From: Candidatus Baltobacteraceae bacterium
GTDB taxonomy: Bacteria; Vulcanimicrobiota; Vulcanimicrobiia; Vulcanimicrobiales; Vulcanimicrobiaceae
DNA: 43,233 nucleotides
Assembly: GCA_035502855.1 (NCBI GenBank)
Contig: DATJTX010000035.1
Span: forward strand, 1 to 43,233
Reading direction: 5' to 3'
The notes beneath the pieces are model-generated. The model worked only from the letters and a program-made list of their open reading frames with translations. It was not told the DNA's origin and did no database searches. The position numbers and the translations under genes were made by a program. Below, piece by piece: positions 10,220 to 20,542 of this stretch; positions within the stretch are counted from its first letter, which is position 1, and every line of letters begins with the position of its first letter.

Positions 10220-11419
10220 ATGGATGCTCTTTTAGGTAATTATAATCGGGCGCCGGTGACGTTCGTGCGCGGCGAGGGCTGCTATCTCTTCGACGATCAG
10301 GGGCGGCGCTATCTCGATTTCATCGCCGGTATTGCGGTGTGTGCGCTCGGTCACAGCCATCCGTGGATCGCACAGGCGGTTTCGGAGCAAGCGCGCACGC
10401 TCGTTCACGTGAGCAATCTCTACTATCAGGAGCCGGCCGGCACTCTCGCGCGCGAATTGGTCGATCGCAGCGGCCTCGCGCGCGTGTTCTTCTGCAATTC
10501 GGGCACCGAAGCGAACGAAGCCGCGATCAAGCTCGCGCGCAAACGGGCGTTCCGTCGCGACGAGAAGGATCGCATGACGATCCTGGCCTGCACGGGATCG
10601 TTTCACGGGCGTACGTACGGCGCGCTGGCCGCTACCGACAACGCGAAGTATCAAGAGGGTTTCGGACCGATGCCGGCGGGCTTCGCGTTCACGCCGTTCA
10701 ACGACGTCGCCGCGCTCGAGAAGAATTTGGACGAGCGCGTCGCCGCGTTCATCGTCGAGCCGGTGCAGGGAGAGAGCGGCGTCCACCCGGCGACGCCGGA
10801 ATTTTTGGCTGCGGCGCGGCGGCTGTGCGATGCGCGCGGCGCGCTGCTGATCTTCGATGAGATTCAGTGCGGCATGGGACGGCTCGGACCGCTCTTCGCC
10901 TTCCAGCGCTTCGAAGTCACACCCGACGTGGTGACGATGGCGAAGGCGCTCGCGAACGGTTTACCCATCGGCGCGATGCTGGTGGCGGAGTGCGCGGCCG
11001 ACGCGCTGCGTCCGGGCGATCACGGTTCGACGTTCGGCGGCTCGCCGATTCCGTGCGCGGCGGCGCTGGCGCATCTGCGCGTGCGCGATGCGATCGATCT
11101 CGCTTCGTACGTCGCGGTGCGCGAGGTACAGCTGATGGCGCGCCTGACCGATCTCGCGCTGGCGTTTCCCAACGCGATCGACGGGATGCGCGGAATAGGG
11201 CTTTTGGCCGCGCTGCAGTTGAAAGAGAAATATCCGGTTGGCGACGTCGTGACCGCGCTGCGCGAAGCCGGCGTGCTGGTCGGAAGCGCGGGCGGGAACT
11301 CACTGCGCTTCGCACCGCCGCTGGTGATCGGCGAAGAGGGCATCGACGAGGCCTACGACGCGCTCTACGACGTGCTCGCGAAGCTGGACGAACGCAAAGA
11401 ACCGATCTTGGCAGGCTGA
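10220..11419 (+). CDS. argD: Acetylornithine aminotransferase
   Basis: A class III PLP-dependent aminotransferase converting N-acetylglutamate semialdehyde to acetylornithine. The 399-residue protein shows CNSGTEANEAAIKLAR, FHGRTYGALAAT, the FDEIQCGMGR cofactor aspartate and the PLP lysine at about residue 242 in TMAKALANGLPIGAM, followed by HGSTFGG. It is the last gene of the arginine operon. No clear terminator hairpin follows before the first riboswitch 115 bp later, so read-through into the fluoride region cannot be excluded. Confidence 0.95.
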   Translation: MDALLGNYNRAPVTFVRGEGCYLFDDQGRRYLDFIAGIAVCALGHSHPWIAQAVSEQARTLVHVSNLYYQEPAGTLARELVDRSGLARVFFCNSGTEANEAAIKLARKRAFRRDEKDRMTILACTGSFHGRTYGALAATDNAKYQEGFGPMPAGFAFTPFNDVAALEKNLDERVAAFIVEPVQGESGVHPATPEFLAAARRLCDARGALLIFDEIQCGMGRLGPLFAFQRFEVTPDVVTMAKALANGLPIGAMLVAECAADALRPGDHGSTFGGSPIPCAAALAHLRVRDAIDLASYVAVREVQLMARLTDLALAFPNAIDGMRGIGLLAALQLKEKYPVGDVVTALREAGVLVGSAGGNSLRFAPPLVIGEEGIDEAYDALYDVLAKLDERKEPILAG

Positions 11420-11533
11420 GCCTTGGGGTACATGTAGTTTGGCCTGCTCACGCGGCTGCAAATAGCTACTCACGCTTGTGGCAGAATGCGGATAGATAGG
11501 AACGATCTCGTAATTCGGCTAAAGCGTAATCCA

Positions 11534-11617
11534 GCGGGATGGAGCTTCCGTCTAACCGCCGAAAACGGCTAATGGCTCCTATCAAGATGAGCACCGTAGT
11601 CTTGACAGGAGTTTTTT
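11534..11617 (+). promoter_or_regulatory. Fluoride (crcB-motif) riboswitch 1
   Basis: The aptamer (11534-11580) reads GGGATGGAGC..CCGTCTAACCGCC-GAAAA-CGGCTAATGGCTCCT. It has the GATG and ATGG-CTCC blocks, the GCCG/CGGC hairpin and the GGAGC/GCTCC P1 stem of crcB-motif RNAs; usual CTGATGG is CTAATGG here. The 3' strand CTCCT (11576-11580) can instead pair in a hairpin, CTCCTATCAAGA (11576-11587) with TCTTGACAGGAG (11600-11611), followed by six T: an intrinsic terminator. AGGAG in its 3' arm is also the ribosome-binding site of the gene at 11619. Fluoride binding should hold CTCCT in P1 and turn the gene on. Confidence 0.9.
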
Positions 11618-11618
11618 C

Positions 11619-11930
11619 ATGCGCAAGGCTTCATCGCGGTCCAAGATCGAGCATCCGAGACGGTCGGCCGTCGTCGCGGCCGTGCTCAGGCTGCTCCTCA
11701 CATTGTCCGGAATGGGCTGCGCGATTGTGTTTAAAGAAGGTTTCGTCGCCATCGTTTCGGTGCTCGCATCGTATTTAATCCCCGTCGGCGGCTATCGCGT
11801 TCTGCGGGTGCAGGCCGTTGCGCTGGCCGCTATGGGCGCCTACGTATATACCGCGGTATCGCACGGCAGCGGAGAAGTCTTTTTCATCGTGGGCGCCGGA
11901 TTATGTCTTGGCGCGATGGCGCAACGTTGA
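11619..11930 (+). CDS. Fluoride-riboswitch-controlled small membrane protein
   Basis: A 103-residue basic-start protein with three likely membrane helices (about residues 18-38, 42-58 and 63-100, the last possibly two short helices). The start ATG lies 7 nt after AGGAG, which is part of the riboswitch hairpin. It does not look like CrcB/Fluc, which has about 125 residues, four helices and conserved Asn and Phe-box residues, and it is far too short for CLC-F. The family is not recognised. Control by a fluoride riboswitch makes a role in fluoride export or membrane protection a reasonable inference, without proof. Confidence 0.8.
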   Translation: MRKASSRSKIEHPRRSAVVAAVLRLLLTLSGMGCAIVFKEGFVAIVSVLASYLIPVGGYRVLRVQAVALAAMGAYVYTAVSHGSGEVFFIVGAGLCLGAMAQR

Positions 11931-12019
11931 GCGTTCACTGAATCGATTGCGCGCGCCTTGGATCACCGGTGCAGGGCATGCGAAGGGCGCAGCGGTCGTC
12001 AGTAAGAACACGCTACCAA

Positions 12020-12098
12020 CGGGGATGGAGCACCCCCTCGAACCGCCAATAATCGGCTGATGGCTCCTGGCCGGATCCGCTAAGCCAGGAGCTTTTTT
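12020..12098 (+). promoter_or_regulatory. Fluoride (crcB-motif) riboswitch 2
   Basis: The aptamer (12020-12068) has GGGGATGGAGC..CCCC, then AACC-GCC-AATAATC-GGC-TGATGGCTCCT: the canonical CTGATGGCTCC block, the GGGG/CCCC pairing and the GGAGC/GCTCC P1 stem. The competing hairpin is CTCCTGGC (12064-12071) with GCCAGGAG (12084-12091), followed by C and six T, directly before the ATG at 12099. As in copy 1 the terminator's 3' arm carries the AGGAG ribosome-binding site. This is the closest of the three to the consensus. Confidence 0.93.
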
Positions 12099-12749
12099 AT
12101 GTCACAACGCTCGCCGATGGGCGATCTTTTCGACGACCTTTGTCACGCCGAGGAAGCGGCGCGTGAACGGCTCCTCGCGGGCTGCGCGGATGACGCGATA
12201 AAGATCGAGCGCTACTTTAACCGCCCGCTGGAAATCGCCAAACGCAGTGCTCGCAATACCATGGCCGGCATGGGATTCTTGGAGGATGTGGATCTCGCGG
12301 CGGGCCTGCGCCGGGAGGCGTTCGAGCGTATCGGAACAGTCTGCGCCGATTCCATCTGCTCGAAGGCCGCGTTGCGCGTGCGCGCGCGGTTCCGCATTTA
12401 CGCGGATGAGATTGCCAACGCCGAAGATCGCATCGCTGACGCCATTGCCGCGTCGCGTCTTGTTCACGTAGAGCGCATCTTTCCGCGCATGTTCTCGATT
12501 GGATGGATTGACTTCGACAATCTGCATATCCCTGATCCTCCGGGCGACGATGCCGCCATCGACGATTGGATCGAGCATCTGCGCCGCGCCGTCGGCGAAG
12601 AACTTGCCGCGAGTACGAAGCGTGCAGTCGGCGAGGTGCTCGAACAGGGATATGCTCGGCTCGGCGTGATCAAGTCGTGCATCGATGCCACGCTCCGAGC
12701 TCTACGTCGCACGGCGCAAGCGGAAATCTCCCACGTGGGACAGGTATGA
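12099..12749 (+). CDS. Fluoride-riboswitch-controlled protein of unknown function
   Basis: A 216-residue, soluble-looking, strongly alpha-helical protein with no signal peptide or membrane segment. It is rich in Ala, Arg, Asp and Glu, and its four cysteines are scattered (no metal-site spacing). A central segment IFPRMFSIGWIDFDNLHIPDPPGDD separates an N-terminal helical half from a C-terminal helical hairpin (EELAASTKRAVGEVLEQGYARLGVIKSCIDATLRALRR). I do not recognise the family. The start is fixed by riboswitch 2, whose hairpin ends at this ATG. The last codon overlaps a possible 24-codon ORF. Confidence 0.8.
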   Translation: MSQRSPMGDLFDDLCHAEEAARERLLAGCADDAIKIERYFNRPLEIAKRSARNTMAGMGFLEDVDLAAGLRREAFERIGTVCADSICSKAALRVRARFRIYADEIANAEDRIADAIAASRLVHVERIFPRMFSIGWIDFDNLHIPDPPGDDAAIDDWIEHLRRAVGEELAASTKRAVGEVLEQGYARLGVIKSCIDATLRALRRTAQAEISHVGQV

Positions 12750-12820: not shown

Positions 12821-12830
12821 AGGGGCTATT

Positions 12831-12923
12831 CGGGCGGTGGAGTTCGCCCGTGACGTACGTGTCGCAAACTGCCGTAGGGCCGATGACTCCTGACAATCAC
12901 GCGTATCGTATTGTCAGGAGCAT
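12831..12923 (+). promoter_or_regulatory. Fluoride (crcB-motif) riboswitch 3, translational type
   Basis: The aptamer begins at 12831 with GGGCGGTGGAGTTCGCCC, has an extra 16-nt segment, then AAACT-GCC-GTAG-GGC-CGATGACTCCT. The P1 stem is GGAGT/ACTCC where copies 1 and 2 have GGAGC/GCTCC, a compensatory change. GATG is GGTG here. The competing hairpin is a perfect CTCCTGACAAT (12887-12897) with ATTGTCAGGAG (12910-12920); no T-run follows. Its 3' arm contains AGGAG, the ribosome-binding site for the TTG start at 12924. Control is therefore more likely at translation initiation, for the first gene of the Hyf-like operon. Confidence 0.87.
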
Positions 12924-13883
12924 TTGTTGATCTTACACCCGATAGCGGTGCAGGCGGCCCAGGTATTGACTCTCCTGCTGCTCTCACCGCTGCTCACGGG
13001 ATGTATCGCGCGCGCCGAAGCCGTCATTGCCGGCAAGCGTGGCCCGTCGATTTTCCAGACGTACCGCGACATCCTGAAGTTTTTTCGGAAGCAACCGCTT
13101 ACACCGGAGCCCTCGTCGTGGGTTTTCCGAACGGCCCCGTATGTGGCGTGTGCGTGCTATGCGACGATCGCAACGCTGATCCCGGTCCTCACCACGTACC
13201 CGTTGCCCGGCGCCACCTTCGGCGACATTCTCGGCGGCGCGTTCCTCTTCGCTCTCGCGGGTTTCGCAACGGCGCTTGCCGGAATCGACTCGGGTTCGGA
13301 ATACGCGCAGATCGGCAGCAGCCGTGCGACGATGGTCGGCATCCTCGTCGAGCCTACGCTGATCTTCGTATTTTTCTCGGTTGCCTTTATCACAGGAACC
13401 GATCTGCCGTACGCGATGAACGCCGCGCTTCGCGACTCCGCGGCCAACGTGCTTCGCCCAGCGCACGTGCTCGCGACCGCGGCCTTTTTCATGATGATGC
13501 TAGTGGATACCGGACGCATACCGATCGAAAGTTCGTCAGCGACCATCGAATTCGGCATGATCGACGATGCGCGCACGTTTGAGCATTCCGGCCCGTGGAT
13601 GGCCCTCTTCAAGTGGAGCTCGTCCATGAAGCAATTTTTGCTCTATACAATTTTCGTCAACGTGTTGCTGTTGCCGATGGGTTTATCGTCAAGCGGTAGC
13701 GTCGGGTCAGTAGCGCTCGCGGTTGTGACGCTCTTCGGAAAGATGCTGATCGTCGGCGCGGTTGTGGCTGCTATCGAGACGACGTTCGCGAAATTGCGCT
13801 TGTACAAGATTACCGAATTCATCGCAACCGGTCTGCTCATCGCCATCCTGGCGGTCTTCGCCTATGCGGTGGGGTTCGGATGA
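12924..13883 (+). CDS. hyfC: HyfC/NuoH-like membrane subunit
   Basis: A 319-residue, roughly eight-helix protein of the HyfC/HycD/NuoH family, which anchors the peripheral arm of hydrogenase-4-type complexes and complex I. Family hallmarks are GKRGPSIFQTYRDILKFFRK, IGSSRATMVGILVEP, DTGRIPIESSSATIEFGMID and FEHSGPWMALFKWSSSMKQ. Two acidic positions usually seen in HyfC are changed: GSSRE is GSSRA, and ALxEW is ALFKW. The start is TTG at 12924 (12927 possible), 4-7 nt after the riboswitch hairpin's AGGAG. It is the first gene of a run in which each stop overlaps the next start. Confidence 0.88.
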   Translation: MLILHPIAVQAAQVLTLLLLSPLLTGCIARAEAVIAGKRGPSIFQTYRDILKFFRKQPLTPEPSSWVFRTAPYVACACYATIATLIPVLTTYPLPGATFGDILGGAFLFALAGFATALAGIDSGSEYAQIGSSRATMVGILVEPTLIFVFFSVAFITGTDLPYAMNAALRDSAANVLRPAHVLATAAFFMMMLVDTGRIPIESSSATIEFGMIDDARTFEHSGPWMALFKWSSSMKQFLLYTIFVNVLLLPMGLSSSGSVGSVALAVVTLFGKMLIVGAVVAAIETTFAKLRLYKITEFIATGLLIAILAVFAYAVGFG

Positions 13884-14551
13884 CGCTTCATCAACTCACT
13901 GTTCCTGAGGCGTTCGCCGGGACGATCGCGATGCTGCTGCTCGTCGTGCAACTCACGCTGTTCCGTTCCGTCGTGATCTCCGAGTTCATCCGAGTGTACG
14001 CTATCCAGGCTTGGCTCGTTGCCGCGATTTGCCTGGGGGTCGGCGTTACCGAGGGTGGCTGGGACCTCGTCGCCCTGGCTATGCTGACGCTGCTGTTCAA
14101 AGGCATCCTTTTGCCACGATACATGCAGCGGCTCGCTCGCGGTATCTCGGCGCGCATCGAGCTGCCGGCGCGTATAAACGTGCGGATTTCGTTGCTCATT
14201 GCCGGGGTGCTTATCGGCGTTTCGATCCTTACGTCGATTCAACTGCCGTTGCATCAAGGCGCTTTCTTACCCAAAGCGGATCTTGCAACCGCGCTATCGA
14301 TGGTTTTCATCGGTTTTCTCGTCGCGATTCTCCGACCAAATGCACTCGCGCAGGTCGTCGCGTTTCTCACACTGGAGGATGGTCTGTTCTTCGGAACCAT
14401 CACGCTCGCACCGGGGCTCCCGTTTATCATCGGTATCCTTCTCTTGATCGATGTGCTCGTTGCGGTGGTCGTATTCGCCGTTTTGGTCCGGGCCTTGGTC
14501 GGGCAGCGAGCCGCCGCCTCCGTGCACGTCTTCGAAACGCTCCGCGGATGA
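13880..14551 (+). CDS. hyfE: HyfE-like membrane subunit
   Basis: A 223-residue protein with about six to seven membrane helices, matching HyfE: an N-terminal NuoK-like part with FRSVVISEFIRVYAIQAWLVA, a basic loop RYMQRLARGISARIELPARINV, and the typical NALAQVVAFLTLEDGLFF segment near residue 165. HyfE sits between the HyfC anchor and antiporter-like subunits in the membrane arm. It starts at the ATGA overlap with the preceding gene and overlaps the next in the same way. Confidence 0.87.
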   Translation: MTLHQLTVPEAFAGTIAMLLLVVQLTLFRSVVISEFIRVYAIQAWLVAAICLGVGVTEGGWDLVALAMLTLLFKGILLPRYMQRLARGISARIELPARINVRISLLIAGVLIGVSILTSIQLPLHQGAFLPKADLATALSMVFIGFLVAILRPNALAQVVAFLTLEDGLFFGTITLAPGLPFIIGILLLIDVLVAVVVFAVLVRALVGQRAAASVHVFETLRG

Positions 14552-15993
14552 ACGCCCTACCGACGGCGATCATCGCCATTCCCGTTGCGGCCGTCATTTT
14601 TTCGCTCGTCCTACCGTCTCGGGTAGGCCGCGTGGTGACCGGCATCGCCGGCGTCGCGACCGCGGCCTGCATTGGTGCCGTCGTCTTTCTCACCGCGAAC
14701 GAAAACTCGCACATCGATGCGCTCTCCGCGCTTTTTCTAATCCCGGTTGGAATCGTCTACGGGGCGGTCGGTATCTACAGCACGTGGTACGTTCGTGCAG
14801 AATCCATTGGAGCGGACGGTGACGAACGCTACCGACGCGAATTCCTCGCGTTGACCAACGCCTTCGCTTGCGCGGAAGCGCTGGTGCCGCTCTTGACGAA
14901 CATGGCCGGGCTCTGGGTGACGCTCGAGGTGACGACGATCGTCGCCGCGCTTTTGGTTCGTTTGCAGGGTACGGACGCGTCGCTCGAAGCCGCGTGGAAG
15001 TACATTCTCATCGCTTCATGCGGCTTGGCCGTTGGTTTGATCGGCGTGGTCGTTCTCTACGCCTCGGGTACGAGCGTACTGGGTTCATACTACACACCCG
15101 ATTGGGCGAACTACATGTCCGTCGCCACGAAGCTAGACGTCGACGCGGTGCGTCTTGCGTTCCTGCTCGCGCTGATTGGATTCGGAACAAAGATGGGCCT
15201 TGCTCCGATGCACACCTGGCTGCCGGACGCACACGGCGCCGGCCCGACGCCGACCAGCGCAATGCTTTCGGGCGTGCTGCTTTCCGACGCGCTCTATATC
15301 ATCACCCGCTTCGCGTCGATCACGAACGCCGCTATCGGCCCCGGCATGACGCGACATCTCTTTTTTATCGTCGGACTGCTCTCGCTCTTCGTCGGCGCCT
15401 TCTTCCTCCTATATCAACGCGATATTAAGCGTATGCTCGCCTATTCGAGCATCGAGCACATGGGCATCGTGGCGTGCGGCCTCGCATTCGGAGCGCGTAT
15501 TGCGGTCATCGGGGCGCTGCTGCACGTCGTCAATCACGCGGCGACCAAAGCGCTCGCGTTCTTGGGCGCCGGGCGCCTCGCTGCGCGCTTCGAAACGCGC
15601 GATATCGCAGGTATCACCGGCGGCGTCGCCGTGCTCCCGATCTCCGGCACGCTGTTCGCGCTCGCGGGACTGGCACTCGCCGGCATGCCGCCCTTTGGTG
15701 TCTTTCGCAGCGAGTTGATGATTCTGAGCGGAGGATTCGGCGGCAGCACATGGCCGATCGCCGCAATCGTGCTCGGCCTACTATTGGTTGCGTTCGCCGG
15801 ACTTGTTCGCTGGACGACCGGTGTGACGGCAGGTATGCCGCCGGGGGGTGTGCGTCGCGGTGAGCGAGATATCGGTGCTATTGCGTCGATGCTGCTGGCG
15901 TTTGCCGTCGTCCTCGGTCTCGGTCTCTATGTACCAGCTCATCTCGGAGTTCTGCTCGATCGTGCAGGCGATATCGTCGGAGGTCATCCATGA
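14548..15993 (+). CDS. hyfF: HyfF-like antiporter-type membrane subunit
   Basis: A 481-residue, about 14-helix protein of the NuoL/M/N-MrpA/D superfamily, closest to HyfF. It keeps the TM5 glutamate (E127 in WVTLEVTTIVAALLV), AAWKYILIASCG, the LAPMHTWLPDAHG loop, YQRDIKRMLAYSSIEHMG and the helix-12 lysine HAATKALAFLGAG. These residues form the half-channels for proton translocation in the family. The TM8 position where related proteins often carry Lys reads GVLLSDALY. ATG 14548 overlaps the hyfE stop. The membrane path thus looks largely intact although the peripheral arm has lost its cofactor ligands. Confidence 0.88.
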   Translation: MNALPTAIIAIPVAAVIFSLVLPSRVGRVVTGIAGVATAACIGAVVFLTANENSHIDALSALFLIPVGIVYGAVGIYSTWYVRAESIGADGDERYRREFLALTNAFACAEALVPLLTNMAGLWVTLEVTTIVAALLVRLQGTDASLEAAWKYILIASCGLAVGLIGVVVLYASGTSVLGSYYTPDWANYMSVATKLDVDAVRLAFLLALIGFGTKMGLAPMHTWLPDAHGAGPTPTSAMLSGVLLSDALYIITRFASITNAAIGPGMTRHLFFIVGLLSLFVGAFFLLYQRDIKRMLAYSSIEHMGIVACGLAFGARIAVIGALLHVVNHAATKALAFLGAGRLAARFETRDIAGITGGVAVLPISGTLFALAGLALAGMPPFGVFRSELMILSGGFGGSTWPIAAIVLGLLLVAFAGLVRWTTGVTAGMPPGGVRRGERDIGAIASMLLAFAVVLGLGLYVPAHLGVLLDRAGDIVGGHP

Positions 15994-17381
15994 GCGGACC
16001 GATCGCACACAGCAGCATACAAACCGCGACGGAGCGACGTGTCCAAGAAGGTGCGCGCCTGGCATGGATCTTTGGCGACCGCGTCGGTTCGGACGTGGTA
16101 CTCCACTACGTCGTGGATCGCGATGGTAAACTGCATGACGAATCGTCAGCGGTATACGATTCCGTCCGTTCGATCAGCGGTCAAGTGCCTGCCGCCGATT
16201 GGTACGAGCGGGAAATCGCGGAGCGCTTCGGCGTCCGCTTCCAGGGCCTAACCGAAAACCGGCCGTTAGTGAAGGTAGTTCCTGCGGAACTTCTGATGCG
16301 GGTCGAGTCCCCCGAGGTGTCGACGGTATTATACGGACCGGTACGATCCGGCATCGTTGAGTCGGTCCGATGGATCGTGGAGACCGCGGGCGAGGACTTC
16401 ATCGACGTCTACCCGTCGATGTTCTTCAAACATCGCGGGCTCGAGGAGCGCTTCATTGGCGCACCGATCGAACTCGCACCGTTCGTGGCGGAGCATGCTT
16501 CCGGCGCGACGGCGTCGAGTCACGCGGCCGCGTTCGCCTGCGCAGCCGAAAGCGCGATGGGAATTGAGGTGCCGAGCCGCGCTCGTGCTACGCGAGCCGT
16601 CTTGGTAGAACTCGAGCGCGCCCACCAGCACCTCGATTCACTCGCCAAACTCGCCGAAGACGGCTCGTTGGCGGTCGGTTCCGCGCAGGTCTTTGCGGCG
16701 AAGGAACGCGTGCATCGGATCCTCTGCGACGCGACCGGCAACCGCTTTGCACGCGGGGTGATTTGCGTCGGTGGAACGCGCTTCGACGTGCTCGAGCGCC
16801 TGCGCGAGACCTGCGCACGAGACCTCGACGTCGCGGAGAATCACGCACGTACTGCGGTCGACCGGCTGATCAATACCCAGTCGTTCATGGACCGCCTCAT
16901 CGGCACCGGAAGGCTTTCGCGCGAGCTCGTGGTGCGGCATGGCGGGGTCGGCCCTGTTGCACGTGGCAGCGGCGTCCCGTGCGACGTACGTACGCTCGAT
17001 GGGTACCTATTCACTCCGCTCGCCGGCGAGGAAGCCTTGGAGGACAATGGCGACGCAGCGTCGCGGGCACTGGTACGCGTTGCCGAGCTTCAACGCTCGT
17101 ACCAACTCGTGCGTAACGCACTCGACGCCGATCCGGGTGGTCCTTACGCCGTTCCCGTGGAGCTGCGCGACGGCAGTGCCATCGCGCGCATCGAGTCGCC
17201 TCAGGGGGAGTTGCTCTACTTCGTGCGTATCTCGGACGGCGCGCTTGCGCGCGTGGCGGTCCGATCGGCGTCCTATGCGAATTGGCCGCTTTTCGTGCCA
17301 TCGCTTCCGGGAAACATCTTTACGGACTTCTCGTTCATCGAGCATTCCTTCGCTTCGTCACAGTCGGAAGTGGACCGATGA
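15990..17381 (+). CDS. NuoC-NuoD/HyfG-like large subunit without NiFe ligands
   Basis: A 463-residue fusion of a NuoC-like N-terminal domain (WYEREIAERFGVRFQG, about residues 68-85) and a NuoD/hydrogenase-large-subunit-like domain. In HycE/HyfG the first metal motif is E-R-x-C-G-x-C-x-x-x-H-S; here the aligned segment is EHASGATASSH (residues 168-178), so both cysteines are Ser171 and Thr174. The neighbouring AAFACAAESAMGIEVP and LVELERAHQHLDSLA confirm the alignment. The C terminus ends FSFIEHSFASSQSEVDR, with no DPCxxC motif, resembling the complex I-like ending GEVDR. It cannot bind a NiFe centre. This loss is known in Ehr complexes and complex I. Confidence 0.88.
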   Translation: MSGPIAHSSIQTATERRVQEGARLAWIFGDRVGSDVVLHYVVDRDGKLHDESSAVYDSVRSISGQVPAADWYEREIAERFGVRFQGLTENRPLVKVVPAELLMRVESPEVSTVLYGPVRSGIVESVRWIVETAGEDFIDVYPSMFFKHRGLEERFIGAPIELAPFVAEHASGATASSHAAAFACAAESAMGIEVPSRARATRAVLVELERAHQHLDSLAKLAEDGSLAVGSAQVFAAKERVHRILCDATGNRFARGVICVGGTRFDVLERLRETCARDLDVAENHARTAVDRLINTQSFMDRLIGTGRLSRELVVRHGGVGPVARGSGVPCDVRTLDGYLFTPLAGEEALEDNGDAASRALVRVAELQRSYQLVRNALDADPGGPYAVPVELRDGSAIARIESPQGELLYFVRISDGALARVAVRSASYANWPLFVPSLPGNIFTDFSFIEHSFASSQSEVDR

Positions 17382-18118
17382 GCTGGATCGGATACGGGTT
17401 GCGGCGGGGCGTATTGACGACGCGTTATCCACTAGGCGATGATACGATGCCGCCGGATTATCGGGGTGAAATCGAGACGCTGCAGGTTGGCCGCGAAGAG
17501 GCCGCCGCGGCGGCAGCAGGATGCCTGTCCAACGCCATTTCCGCCGACGAAAGGCCGCGGGTAGATGGACTGCGCTGCTTCCAATGCGGACAATGCACGC
17601 GTGTAGCGCCGCGCGCGTTCGTCGCGCGTAGCCATTTCGAACTCGCGCGGCTGGCGGAGCCGGCGGACCAGACGTTCCGCAGTCTCCGCGATCGCGCTCG
17701 CGCGTTCGGCCGCTCGGTGCACCTTCGACACGTCGACGCGGGAAGCGACGGATCCGAGGAACAGGAGTTGGCGGCCATCTTCAATCCGTTCTACGATGCC
17801 AATCGCCTCGGTATTTTCCTCACGGCGACGCCGCGCCACGCGGACGTGCTAATCGTGAGCGGCGTCGTGACCAAAGCGATGGCCGATCCGCTGCGGCGCA
17901 CATACGAAGCAATGCCGGACCCGAAGGTCGTCGTGGCGTTAGGTACCAGCGCCTGCTCCGGCGGCATCTTCGCAGATTCTCCACACGTCGTCGGGCCGGT
18001 CAGCACTCTGCTTCCGGTCGACGTGCTCATTCCGGGAGCGCCGCCCTCACCGCTGACGATTCTGCACGGCCTGTGGGTTGCGCTCGGGCACATGCTTGCG
18101 CGGGATGCGGCGTCATGA
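17378..18118 (+). CDS. HyfH-HyfI fusion (NuoI+NuoB-like) with ablated Fe-S sites
   Basis: A 246-residue protein. Residues 8-85 match HyfH/HycF: LRRGVLTTRYPLG, then a degenerate first ferredoxin motif (R39, A42, A45, C49, followed by SNAI) and a second one with C67, C70, C73 but Ala77 for the last Cys. Residues 115-240 match HyfI/NuoB: GSCNGCDIE of the family is GSDGSEEQE (Asp124, Glu127), GTC is GTS (Ser191, with Cys193 nearby), and PGCPP is PGAPP (Ala221). All four proximal [4Fe-4S] ligands are gone. Framework sequence (HADVLIVSGVVTKAM, PKVVVALGT, LPVDVLIPG) is well kept, so this is a maintained protein and no decaying pseudogene. Confidence 0.87.
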   Translation: MSWIGYGLRRGVLTTRYPLGDDTMPPDYRGEIETLQVGREEAAAAAAGCLSNAISADERPRVDGLRCFQCGQCTRVAPRAFVARSHFELARLAEPADQTFRSLRDRARAFGRSVHLRHVDAGSDGSEEQELAAIFNPFYDANRLGIFLTATPRHADVLIVSGVVTKAMADPLRRTYEAMPDPKVVVALGTSACSGGIFADSPHVVGPVSTLLPVDVLIPGAPPSPLTILHGLWVALGHMLARDAAS

Positions 18119-20094
18119 TGACATTGCTGGTTGCACTCGCGCTTTGTGCCCTCGGAACGCTATTCTCAGTCATCGTGCCGTCCGCATTCGGACGTCTTTG
18201 CGGCTTTTTGCTAATGGGTGCGGCCGGCGTCGCCGCGGTGCTCGCATCGCTTCAAGGTTTGAGCGCAGGAACGCAATCGATCGGCTTCGCGGCTGCACAA
18301 ACCCACCTATTGCTCAGGCTGGATCCAACGAGTGCCTTCTTCGTGGGCGTACTCGGCGTCGTCGCAATGCTCGTCTCGCTCTACGGTTTGGGTCCGCGTA
18401 CGACCGACGAGCGCCGCACCGGTCGTGCCGCATCCGCGACCGCGTGCGCAATCCTCTTCGCCTCCATCCTCGCCTGCGTCGCTGACGACGTGTTGCTCTT
18501 CATCTTTGCATGGGAACTGCTGGCCCTCACCTTCTACTGGGCTATCGCCTACTCGGGCACAGACCCAAAATCTCCGAAGGCGGCGTACGTGACCATCGTT
18601 GTGACCCACATCGCGGGCGCGTGCATCGTCGCTTCGCTACTGTTCCTCGCGCACGTTGCAGGCAGTTTCGAAGTGGAAGCGGTCGTTGCAGCGGGCGCAC
18701 GCACCACCGGCGTCGCGGCCGGAGTGCTTCTAATGCTGCTGCTGGTCGGCTTCGGCGCCAAGTTCGGGATGTTGCCGATGCAGGTATGGATGCCCTATGG
18801 CTATCGCTCGGCGCCGTCGGTCGTCGCGGCGCTGATGGCCGGCGGAGCGCTTAATGTCGGGTTCTACGGCGTCACGCGATTCATCGTCGGGTTTCCCGAC
18901 GCGCCTCTCTGGCTCGGCATCGTCGCCATCGGCGTAGGAGCGATCACCGCGTTCTTTGGTATTGCGTGGGCATCTTCACGGCGTGACATGCGCCGGCTTG
19001 CTGCGTACTCGAGCGTTGAAAACGGCGGCATTATCCTCGCCGCATTCGGCGTCGCGATCGCCGGCGGTGCGTTGCACGACCGCATGCTGGTCGGCTTCGC
19101 GATCGCTGCGGCGTTGGTACAGATCGCCGCGCATGCCGCCGCCAAGACGACGCTCTTCCTTTCGATCGCCTCGATCGGTGACGCGTGCTCCACGCTCAGC
19201 TTCGATGCACTCGGCGGCCTCTCGCGCCGCTTGCCGGTCGTATCGGTCGTTGTTCTCATTTGCGGCATGTCGCTCGCCGCGCTCCCGCCGCTTGCCGGAT
19301 TCGTCGGGGAGTGGCTGGTACTCGAATCGCTCATGCAGGCGTTCCGCACCGGAAACGTCACAAGCGAAGTCGCATTCGCGCTCGGAGGCGCCGTCATCGG
19401 CGTGGCGGCGGGCATTGCAGTTGTGACGTTCACGAAGTTCGTCGGCATCGGCGTCCTGGGCGCCGATCGTGCCGAACGAGTGCCATCGCATGGCGCGAAA
19501 TCCCCGTGGCGCCATGCCGGATTGGTCATCGGCGCCGCATGCGTCATCTGCATCGGCGTATTCGCGATCTCGTTGCTCCGATTGGTCGCGCCCTCGATCG
19601 ACGGGATCGCGGAGGTGCCGGCGACGCAGGCGATGATAGGTTCGTTTCCACTCGTGCAGCCGACGTTCGCGGGCTTCTCGTCCATATCACCTAGCGGACT
19701 CTGCATCGTGCTCTGCGGCTTCACCCTGATGTTCTGGATCATCGCTCGTTTGATCTCTCGTCCGCGCGGACGATACGCCTCGACCTGGACGTCGGGTGAG
19801 CCATACCGCCCGTGGACGCAGTACACCGGCACGGGTTACGCGAATCCGACCCGCGTGATTCTCGACGCCGCGGTGCGGACCGTACGGGACACGCAGGCGT
19901 CGGCGCGCGGATACGCGAGCGAAATACGCCCGTTCTTCGACCTACGGTTTTACGAGGTGCTGGCGAAGCCGTTTATCGCCGTCGGCGCATTGGTGCGAAC
20001 CACGCAATCCGGCGTTATCGCCGCGTATCTTTCGTACATCCTCGTCTTCACCATCCTCATGTTGGTGCTGTTTCCTTCCATCCGGCATTGGTAG
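18115..20094 (+). CDS. hyfB: HyfB-like antiporter-type membrane subunit
   Basis: A 659-residue protein, similar in size to E. coli HyfB, with about 16 membrane helices. Antiporter-superfamily motifs: FAWELLALTFYW (TM5 Glu), GFGAKFGMLPMQVWMPYGY (TM7 Lys), SSRRDMRRLAAYSSVENGG and HAAAKTTLFLSIAS (helix-12 Lys). The TM8 region MAGGALNVGFYG carries Asn where HyfB/NuoM usually have Lys, and WLPYAH is WMPYGY. The C terminus has the HyfB-type amphipathic tail (STWTSGEPYRPWTQYTGTGYANP...IRPFFDLRFYEVLAKPF). The start overlaps the preceding gene. The HyfA iron-sulfur protein and formate dehydrogenase gene of true formate hydrogenlyase operons are absent. Confidence 0.88.
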   Translation: MMTLLVALALCALGTLFSVIVPSAFGRLCGFLLMGAAGVAAVLASLQGLSAGTQSIGFAAAQTHLLLRLDPTSAFFVGVLGVVAMLVSLYGLGPRTTDERRTGRAASATACAILFASILACVADDVLLFIFAWELLALTFYWAIAYSGTDPKSPKAAYVTIVVTHIAGACIVASLLFLAHVAGSFEVEAVVAAGARTTGVAAGVLLMLLLVGFGAKFGMLPMQVWMPYGYRSAPSVVAALMAGGALNVGFYGVTRFIVGFPDAPLWLGIVAIGVGAITAFFGIAWASSRRDMRRLAAYSSVENGGIILAAFGVAIAGGALHDRMLVGFAIAAALVQIAAHAAAKTTLFLSIASIGDACSTLSFDALGGLSRRLPVVSVVVLICGMSLAALPPLAGFVGEWLVLESLMQAFRTGNVTSEVAFALGGAVIGVAAGIAVVTFTKFVGIGVLGADRAERVPSHGAKSPWRHAGLVIGAACVICIGVFAISLLRLVAPSIDGIAEVPATQAMIGSFPLVQPTFAGFSSISPSGLCIVLCGFTLMFWIIARLISRPRGRYASTWTSGEPYRPWTQYTGTGYANPTRVILDAAVRTVRDTQASARGYASEIRPFFDLRFYEVLAKPFIAVGALVRTTQSGVIAAYLSYILVFTILMLVLFPSIRHW

Positions 20095-20101
20095 GTGTCA
20101 T

Positions 20102-20542
20102 ATGTTCTCTCACATCATCATCGCTTGGGACGGATCCGATCACGCAAGGCGCGCATTCGAATACGGGGTCGGCATCTCCGAAAAGTTCGGAGCGCGATTG
20201 CAACTGGTCTCGGTTGCGCGTCACACCGAGCACGCGGAGACGCAAGACGAAAGGCAAGACTCCCGAAGAAAAGCACGACACTTCTACGAAGCGGCCGCCG
20301 CCGAGCTCATCGAGTCCGGAAAGAGACGCGGAGTCAAGGCGGAGTTGCTGATCGTCGAGGGCGGTCACCCGGCCGAAGCGATCGTGGATACGGCGCGCAA
20401 AGTCGGCGCTGACCTCATCATCGTTGGCCGGCGCGGACTCTCGGGCATGACGCGATTTCTGATGGGAAGCATCTCCGATCGCATCGCCCGTTACGCCCAC
20501 TGCCCGGTACTCGTAATCGATGGGTTTGCGACGCCGCCCTAA
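20102..20542 (+). CDS. Universal stress protein (UspA family)
   Basis: A 146-residue single-domain Usp. It begins FSHIIIAWDGSDHARRAFEYGVGIS and has the nucleotide-binding signature GRRGLSGMTRFLMGSIS (G-2x-G-9x-G-S), then ARYAHCPVLVI. Members with this motif bind ATP or AMP. It starts 7 nt after the hyfB-like stop with no promoter space, so it belongs to the fluoride-regulated operon. UspA genes have been noted elsewhere among genes behind crcB-motif RNAs, which supports the operon assignment. Confidence 0.93.
   Translation: MFSHIIIAWDGSDHARRAFEYGVGISEKFGARLQLVSVARHTEHAETQDERQDSRRKARHFYEAAAAELIESGKRRGVKAELLIVEGGHPAEAIVDTARKVGADLIIVGRRGLSGMTRFLMGSISDRIARYAHCPVLVIDGFATPP

Follow-up and report, generated by a model that had tools for sequence, protein, structure and literature searches.

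A probable small membrane protein gene behind a fluoride riboswitch, in a Candidatus Baltobacteraceae genome that seems to lack known fluoride exporters

Riboswitches of the fluoride class turn their downstream gene on: bound fluoride stabilises the aptamer and blocks a terminator. The bacterial fluoride exporters named in the available sections of a review are Fluc and CLC-F only (PMC11139923). Singleton Flucs, as described in part of a study of that family, have balanced loop charges, four helices and dual topology, and the third Fluc transmembrane segment (TM3) carries a conserved GxxGGxTTFSTFxxE segment (PMC3755343), while fluoride CLCs carry sets such as GNNLI, GREGT and GEVTP according to one published table (PMC5100911). 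Excerpts of two further papers present Ehr complexes as group 4 hydrogenase relatives without metal ligands, with a function that one of them gives as unknown (PMC6349859, PMC10284858), and that fluoride switches control some genes named formate hydrogenlyase has already been published, as seen in portions of two sources (PMC11139923, PMC8752731).

The window analysed here, a stretch of 43,233 nt from the genome of a Candidatus Baltobacteraceae bacterium (G000), has a tandem of three + strand fluoride riboswitches, all above the Rfam gathering score. They follow a row of genes ending near 11419 that, from the translations, we take to be concerned with arginine biosynthesis. The features of the locus are as follows.

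11526-11588, + strand: aptamer of fluoride riboswitch 1, matched by cmscan over the whole RF01734 model (1-64) at 43.2 bits
11574-11617, + strand: terminator of switch 1, a hairpin (11574-11613) with a T run, folding at -16.8 kcal/mol (z -3.16)
11619-11930, + strand: P0001, predicted orphan small membrane protein, 103 aa, 3-4 predicted helices, K/R-rich N-terminus
12012-12076, + strand: fluoride riboswitch 2 aptamer (cmscan 44.0 bits)
ending at 12098, + strand: switch 2 terminator hairpin and T run (from folding)
12099-12749, + strand: P0002, a 216-aa helical protein, behind switch 2
12824-12899, + strand: fluoride riboswitch 3 aptamer (cmscan 35.7 bits)
12924-20094, + strand: Hyf-like operon with HyfC, HyfE, HyfF, HyfG-like, HyfI-like and a 659-aa membrane subunit (gene calls; Pfam/NCBIfam for the first five genes)
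20102-20542, + strand: universal stress protein (Usp; PF00582, 113 bits), directly 3′ of the Hyf-like operon

The first-pass annotation had given the coordinates and the 103-aa length of the P0001 frame correctly, and had rightly seen that switch 1 is directly followed by P0001 and by no other gene: the P0001 ATG lies 30 nt after the end of the aptamer, and riboswitch 2 (from 12012) is the next element. The element upstream of P0001 belongs to RF01734 by score (43.2 bits, where the gathering cut-off is 34), and the terminator hairpin overlaps a strand of the aptamer. By-eye assignment on the sequence placed the pseudoknot strands at GGAG (11541-11544) and CTCC (11576-11579), the latter contained in the 5′ arm of the terminator. 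Because CTCC is common to both structures, aptamer and terminator would be mutually exclusive. The 3′ arm of the terminator in turn holds the Shine-Dalgarno sequence AGGAG (11607-11611), 7 nt upstream of the P0001 ATG. As far as its sequence tells, switch 1 is intact and has the usual ON-switch layout, and we infer from the behaviour of the class that fluoride induces P0001. A search of the stretch for a sigma-70-like promoter came back empty, a point against the accessory reading given below.

Of 4000 dinucleotide shuffles, 627 contained an open frame of at least 103 codons starting in the first 60 nt, so ORF length alone is weak evidence for a gene. A same-length open frame with at least two hydrophobic segments arose in 4 of 4000 such shuffles. 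The codon score of P0001 was 0.155, against -0.34 to 0.01 for the five other frames of the same stretch; this score stands at the 38th percentile among real-gene windows, with 3.2% of wrong-frame windows scoring higher. The ORF is probably a gene, and codon statistics and hydrophobicity support a membrane protein of 3-4 helices. The earlier description of a roughly three-helix protein agrees with a single-sequence AlphaFold2 model of three helices, although of low confidence (pLDDT 59.9); in a 19-residue hydropathy scan two segments were clear and one or two weaker. Six K/R residues fall in the N-terminal loop and at most two in every other loop, a strong positive-inside bias from which a one-way, N-in topology is predicted.

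P0001 is an orphan, without relatives wherever sequences were searched. No Pfam family was matched at cut-off (one chance match, E 0.22), no NCBIfam or PHROGs family was matched, and PDB sequences yielded one chance match only (E 0.38). In 149 phylum genomes the query recovered, besides itself, five weak pieces in five other genomes (E 0.001-0.01), within frames of 227-985 aa. Weak matches in 18 of 60 genomes (E up to 0.1, its own genome included) were rejected as chance, and all weak matches, which covered the query partially and lay within open frames 227-1249 aa long, were judged likewise. Scanning 84,980 species gave 94 pattern matches and viral contigs gave eight; none was confirmed, both scans reaching close relatives only. 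P0001 was also a singleton among the 939 genes called by a custom script in fluoride loci, a set containing duplicates where the short loci L029-L057 overlap longer ones. The one Foldseek match obtained with the low-confidence model (E 5.8) was set aside.

Like Fluc/CrcB, P0001 is a small membrane protein of several predicted helices, encoded behind a fluoride riboswitch. Its lack of Fluc/CrcB features, noted in the first-pass annotation, was confirmed: the Fluc profile PF02537 gave no match, profile comparison with 11 Flucs gave a probability of 0.1%, and neither GxxGGxTTFSTFxxE nor GGYTTFSTF occurs in the sequence. At 103 residues it is shorter than Fluc (about 120-130 in the quoted part of PMC3755343), and its 3-4 predicted helices, with a charge strongly biased N-in, would differ from the balanced loops of singleton Flucs. 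CLC-F is likewise a riboswitch-controlled class of fluoride exporters, but CLC proteins are several times larger than P0001, in which the CLC family PF00654 found no match. The Na+/H+ antiporter linked to fluoride switches (PF00999) is, like P0001, a membrane protein directly behind the switch, yet has about 386 aa and about 10 hydrophobic segments. Finally, P0001 is not among the recognised Ehr complex subunits, and it has no Pfam match to the small Mrp subunits.

The source genome carries seven fluoride riboswitches, three in the window and four on contig C21, and no CrcB (PF02537) was found in the whole of it. Its single CLC has the filter letters GHGVP, GREGP and GVFAP, on which it was rejected as a disguised CLC-F, and no riboswitch was found near it. 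The fluoride-linked Na+/H+ antiporter (CPA) was not found by a query that did find the copies in three other genomes (G001, G026 and G015). On these searches G000 seems to be without any known fluoride exporter; as the assembly is 96.6% complete, a crcB could sit in a gap. With seven switches and no CrcB, CLC-F-type CLC or linked antiporter, the export question is a real one, and the earlier picture of a small membrane protein under a fluoride ON-type switch and sequence-unrelated to Fluc stands, here in a genome that yielded no Fluc, CLC-F or linked CPA. In G001, of the same genus, the gene order is DUF190, switch, DUF190, CrcB and antiporter. Contig C21 of G000 carries a DUF190 gene, with 80% identical DNA, upstream of a switch that is followed by a NUDIX gene.

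Our preferred reading, at a probability of about 0.5, is of P0001 as a genuine small membrane protein, specific to the lineage and induced by fluoride, that acts as an accessory of the fluoride/acid response and is not the main exporter. It is unlikely that switch 1 has lost its original cargo (for instance DUF190-CrcB) and that P0001 is a young, decaying or non-functional frame. Such an origin would fit the absence of relatives in the 149 genomes and the 84,980-species scan, since a total lack of relatives, which counts against an accessory role, is also expected for a young or non-functional ORF. It would also fit the frequency of frames of this length in shuffles, and the same-genus switch that drives DUF190-CrcB-CPA where the search of G000 found neither CrcB nor that CPA. 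However, the codon bias of P0001 is like that of real genes, its membrane character is rare among the shuffles, and the Shine-Dalgarno sequence and terminator are intact; moreover, when all six frames of 11420-12011 were compared with the gene calls from the fetched loci, no decayed CrcB or DUF190 emerged.

Fluoride switch matches were present in 63 of the 117 class genomes (above the family cut-off in 44 of the 117) and CrcB in 55 of the 117, with 34 of the 63 switch-bearing genomes lacking CrcB. Among the 29 of these 34 that were fetched (the remaining five were not), 14 had the antiporter, 12 had HyfC and three had neither; one of the 12, G015, has the antiporter elsewhere. A CLC occurred in eight of the 12 HyfC-bearing genomes, G000 included, and in none with the CLC-F filter. 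A motif scan of both strands found GHGVP in the CLCs of G000 and seven other genomes, accompanied by GREGP except in one short piece from G018, whose full copy has GREGP, while the CLC of G021 has GREGA and no GNN motif. By these searches, 11 of the 12 CrcB-less genomes with a fluoride-linked Ehr appear to have no known exporter. The candidates are G000, G006, G018, G021, G028, G071, G089, G106, G108, G110 and G121, some of which are incomplete (G121 74%, G108 89%), so that single absences may be gaps.

It is quite improbable that P0001 itself exports or conducts fluoride, having replaced Fluc in this lineage, even though no other small membrane protein lies directly behind a fluoride switch in the CrcB-less G000, the CLC letters there are not the CLC-F set, the fluoride-linked CPA was not found, and a same-genus genome carries switch-DUF190-CrcB-CPA. 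The protein has neither homologues nor the Fluc motif, its predicted one-way topology is unlike that of singleton Flucs, and a crcB could be hidden in a gap of the 96.6% complete assembly. Furthermore, P0001 was absent from the ten other exporter-gap genomes with Ehr islands. P0001 is therefore not the shared export solution of the clade, and since these relatives carry fluoride islands without it, fluoride export in the clade would be independent of the P0001 family. Of the two roles that the first-pass annotation had proposed, exporter or accessory, the first is unsupported in view of the lack of homologues, the gap relatives without P0001 and the N-in charge, and the accessory role is the better half.

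Other cargo of these switches was surveyed across the class. The PF00999 antiporter lies directly behind 23 of the 113 mapped switches (of 124 switch matches, the other 11 being in genomes without a fetched stretch). The custom caller placed no gene behind 15 of the 113, at least one of which does have a gene by hand check, a pyrophosphatase in locus L103. In G096 this inorganic pyrophosphatase, a known fluoride-linked enzyme, is encoded 3′ of a fluoride switch (L103 2591-3175, - strand). A second orphan, of 100 aa with two hydrophobic segments, is located behind a sub-threshold switch of 32 bits in G071 (L110 10711-11010, - strand); the other 116 class genomes gave two weak partial matches to it (E 0.003-0.004) and no credible relative. 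This protein, unrelated to P0001, suggests that lineage-specific small membrane cargo recurs behind these switches. A limited literature search brought up no paper on such islands in this clade.

The second cassette of the window encodes P0002, which belongs to a fluoride-linked family whose members, in some islands, adjoin a dynamin-like GTPase or lie close to one. The GTPase (PF00350 by a Pfam run on the L028 copy) adjoins in L028 (10125-12352) and L099 (8907-11197). The predicted fold of P0002 (pLDDT 89) ranked dynamin/Mx stalks first (best Z 11.4, rmsd 3.9, 186 aligned), which for a helical bundle is suggestive only, and on this modelling a fluoride-induced membrane-remodelling pair of P0002 family and dynamin is possible. 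On contig C21 the four further fluoride riboswitches lie at 85408-92690 (L028); their cargo consists of NUDIX, a coiled-coil protein with two MutS-V, P0002-family with dynamin, and a second Ehr operon.

In the third cassette of the window, the HyfG-like large subunit (15990-17381) contains no CxxC, and the same holds for both G000 copies. As the [NiFe] CxxC motifs are missing, the Hyf-like operon would fit an Ehr-type complex, and 'formate hydrogenlyase' would be a misnomer for it. We give little credence to P0001 being a fast-evolving structural subunit of this complex. The two share orientation and inducer and lie 1 kb apart, and Mrp/complex-I-type machines include small helical subunits; nevertheless, P0001 is encoded in a separate cassette, no counterpart was seen in other Ehr islands, and the small Mrp subunits gave no Pfam match.

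We keep an accessory role under fluoride and acid stress as the best and most economical reading of P0001. Fluoride binding would stabilise aptamer 1, block the terminator and switch P0001 on, and the protein would insert as a bundle of 3-4 helices, its K/R-rich N-terminus facing the cytoplasm. There it may support a co-induced membrane system, most plausibly the Ehr proton/cation complex 1 kb downstream under switch 3; alternatively, it may aid general envelope and pH homeostasis as HF carries protons inward. The intact switch, terminator and Shine-Dalgarno sequence, the coding statistics, the membrane character, the K/R bias, the same-direction tandem of three cassettes with Ehr as the third, the ten exporter-gap relatives without P0001 and the second orphan of G071 all argue for an accessory. 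Against a tie to Ehr in particular stand the separate switch, the lack of conserved pairing and of homologues, and the low-confidence model. That P0001 founds a new exporter class, or is an essential subunit of an Ehr-built exporter, after loss of Fluc in this lineage, the clade more widely exporting fluoride by an undescribed mechanism, seems very improbable.

G000, with its seven switches, and its ten Ehr-bearing relatives appear to be without Fluc or CLC-F. This apparent absence of both exporters makes it a concrete question what exports fluoride in these bacteria, or what replaces export, and the short list of candidates comprises P0001, the Ehr complexes and the remaining cargo of the switches. 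The clade-wide fluoride islands without a recognised exporter are a more valuable lead than P0001 itself.
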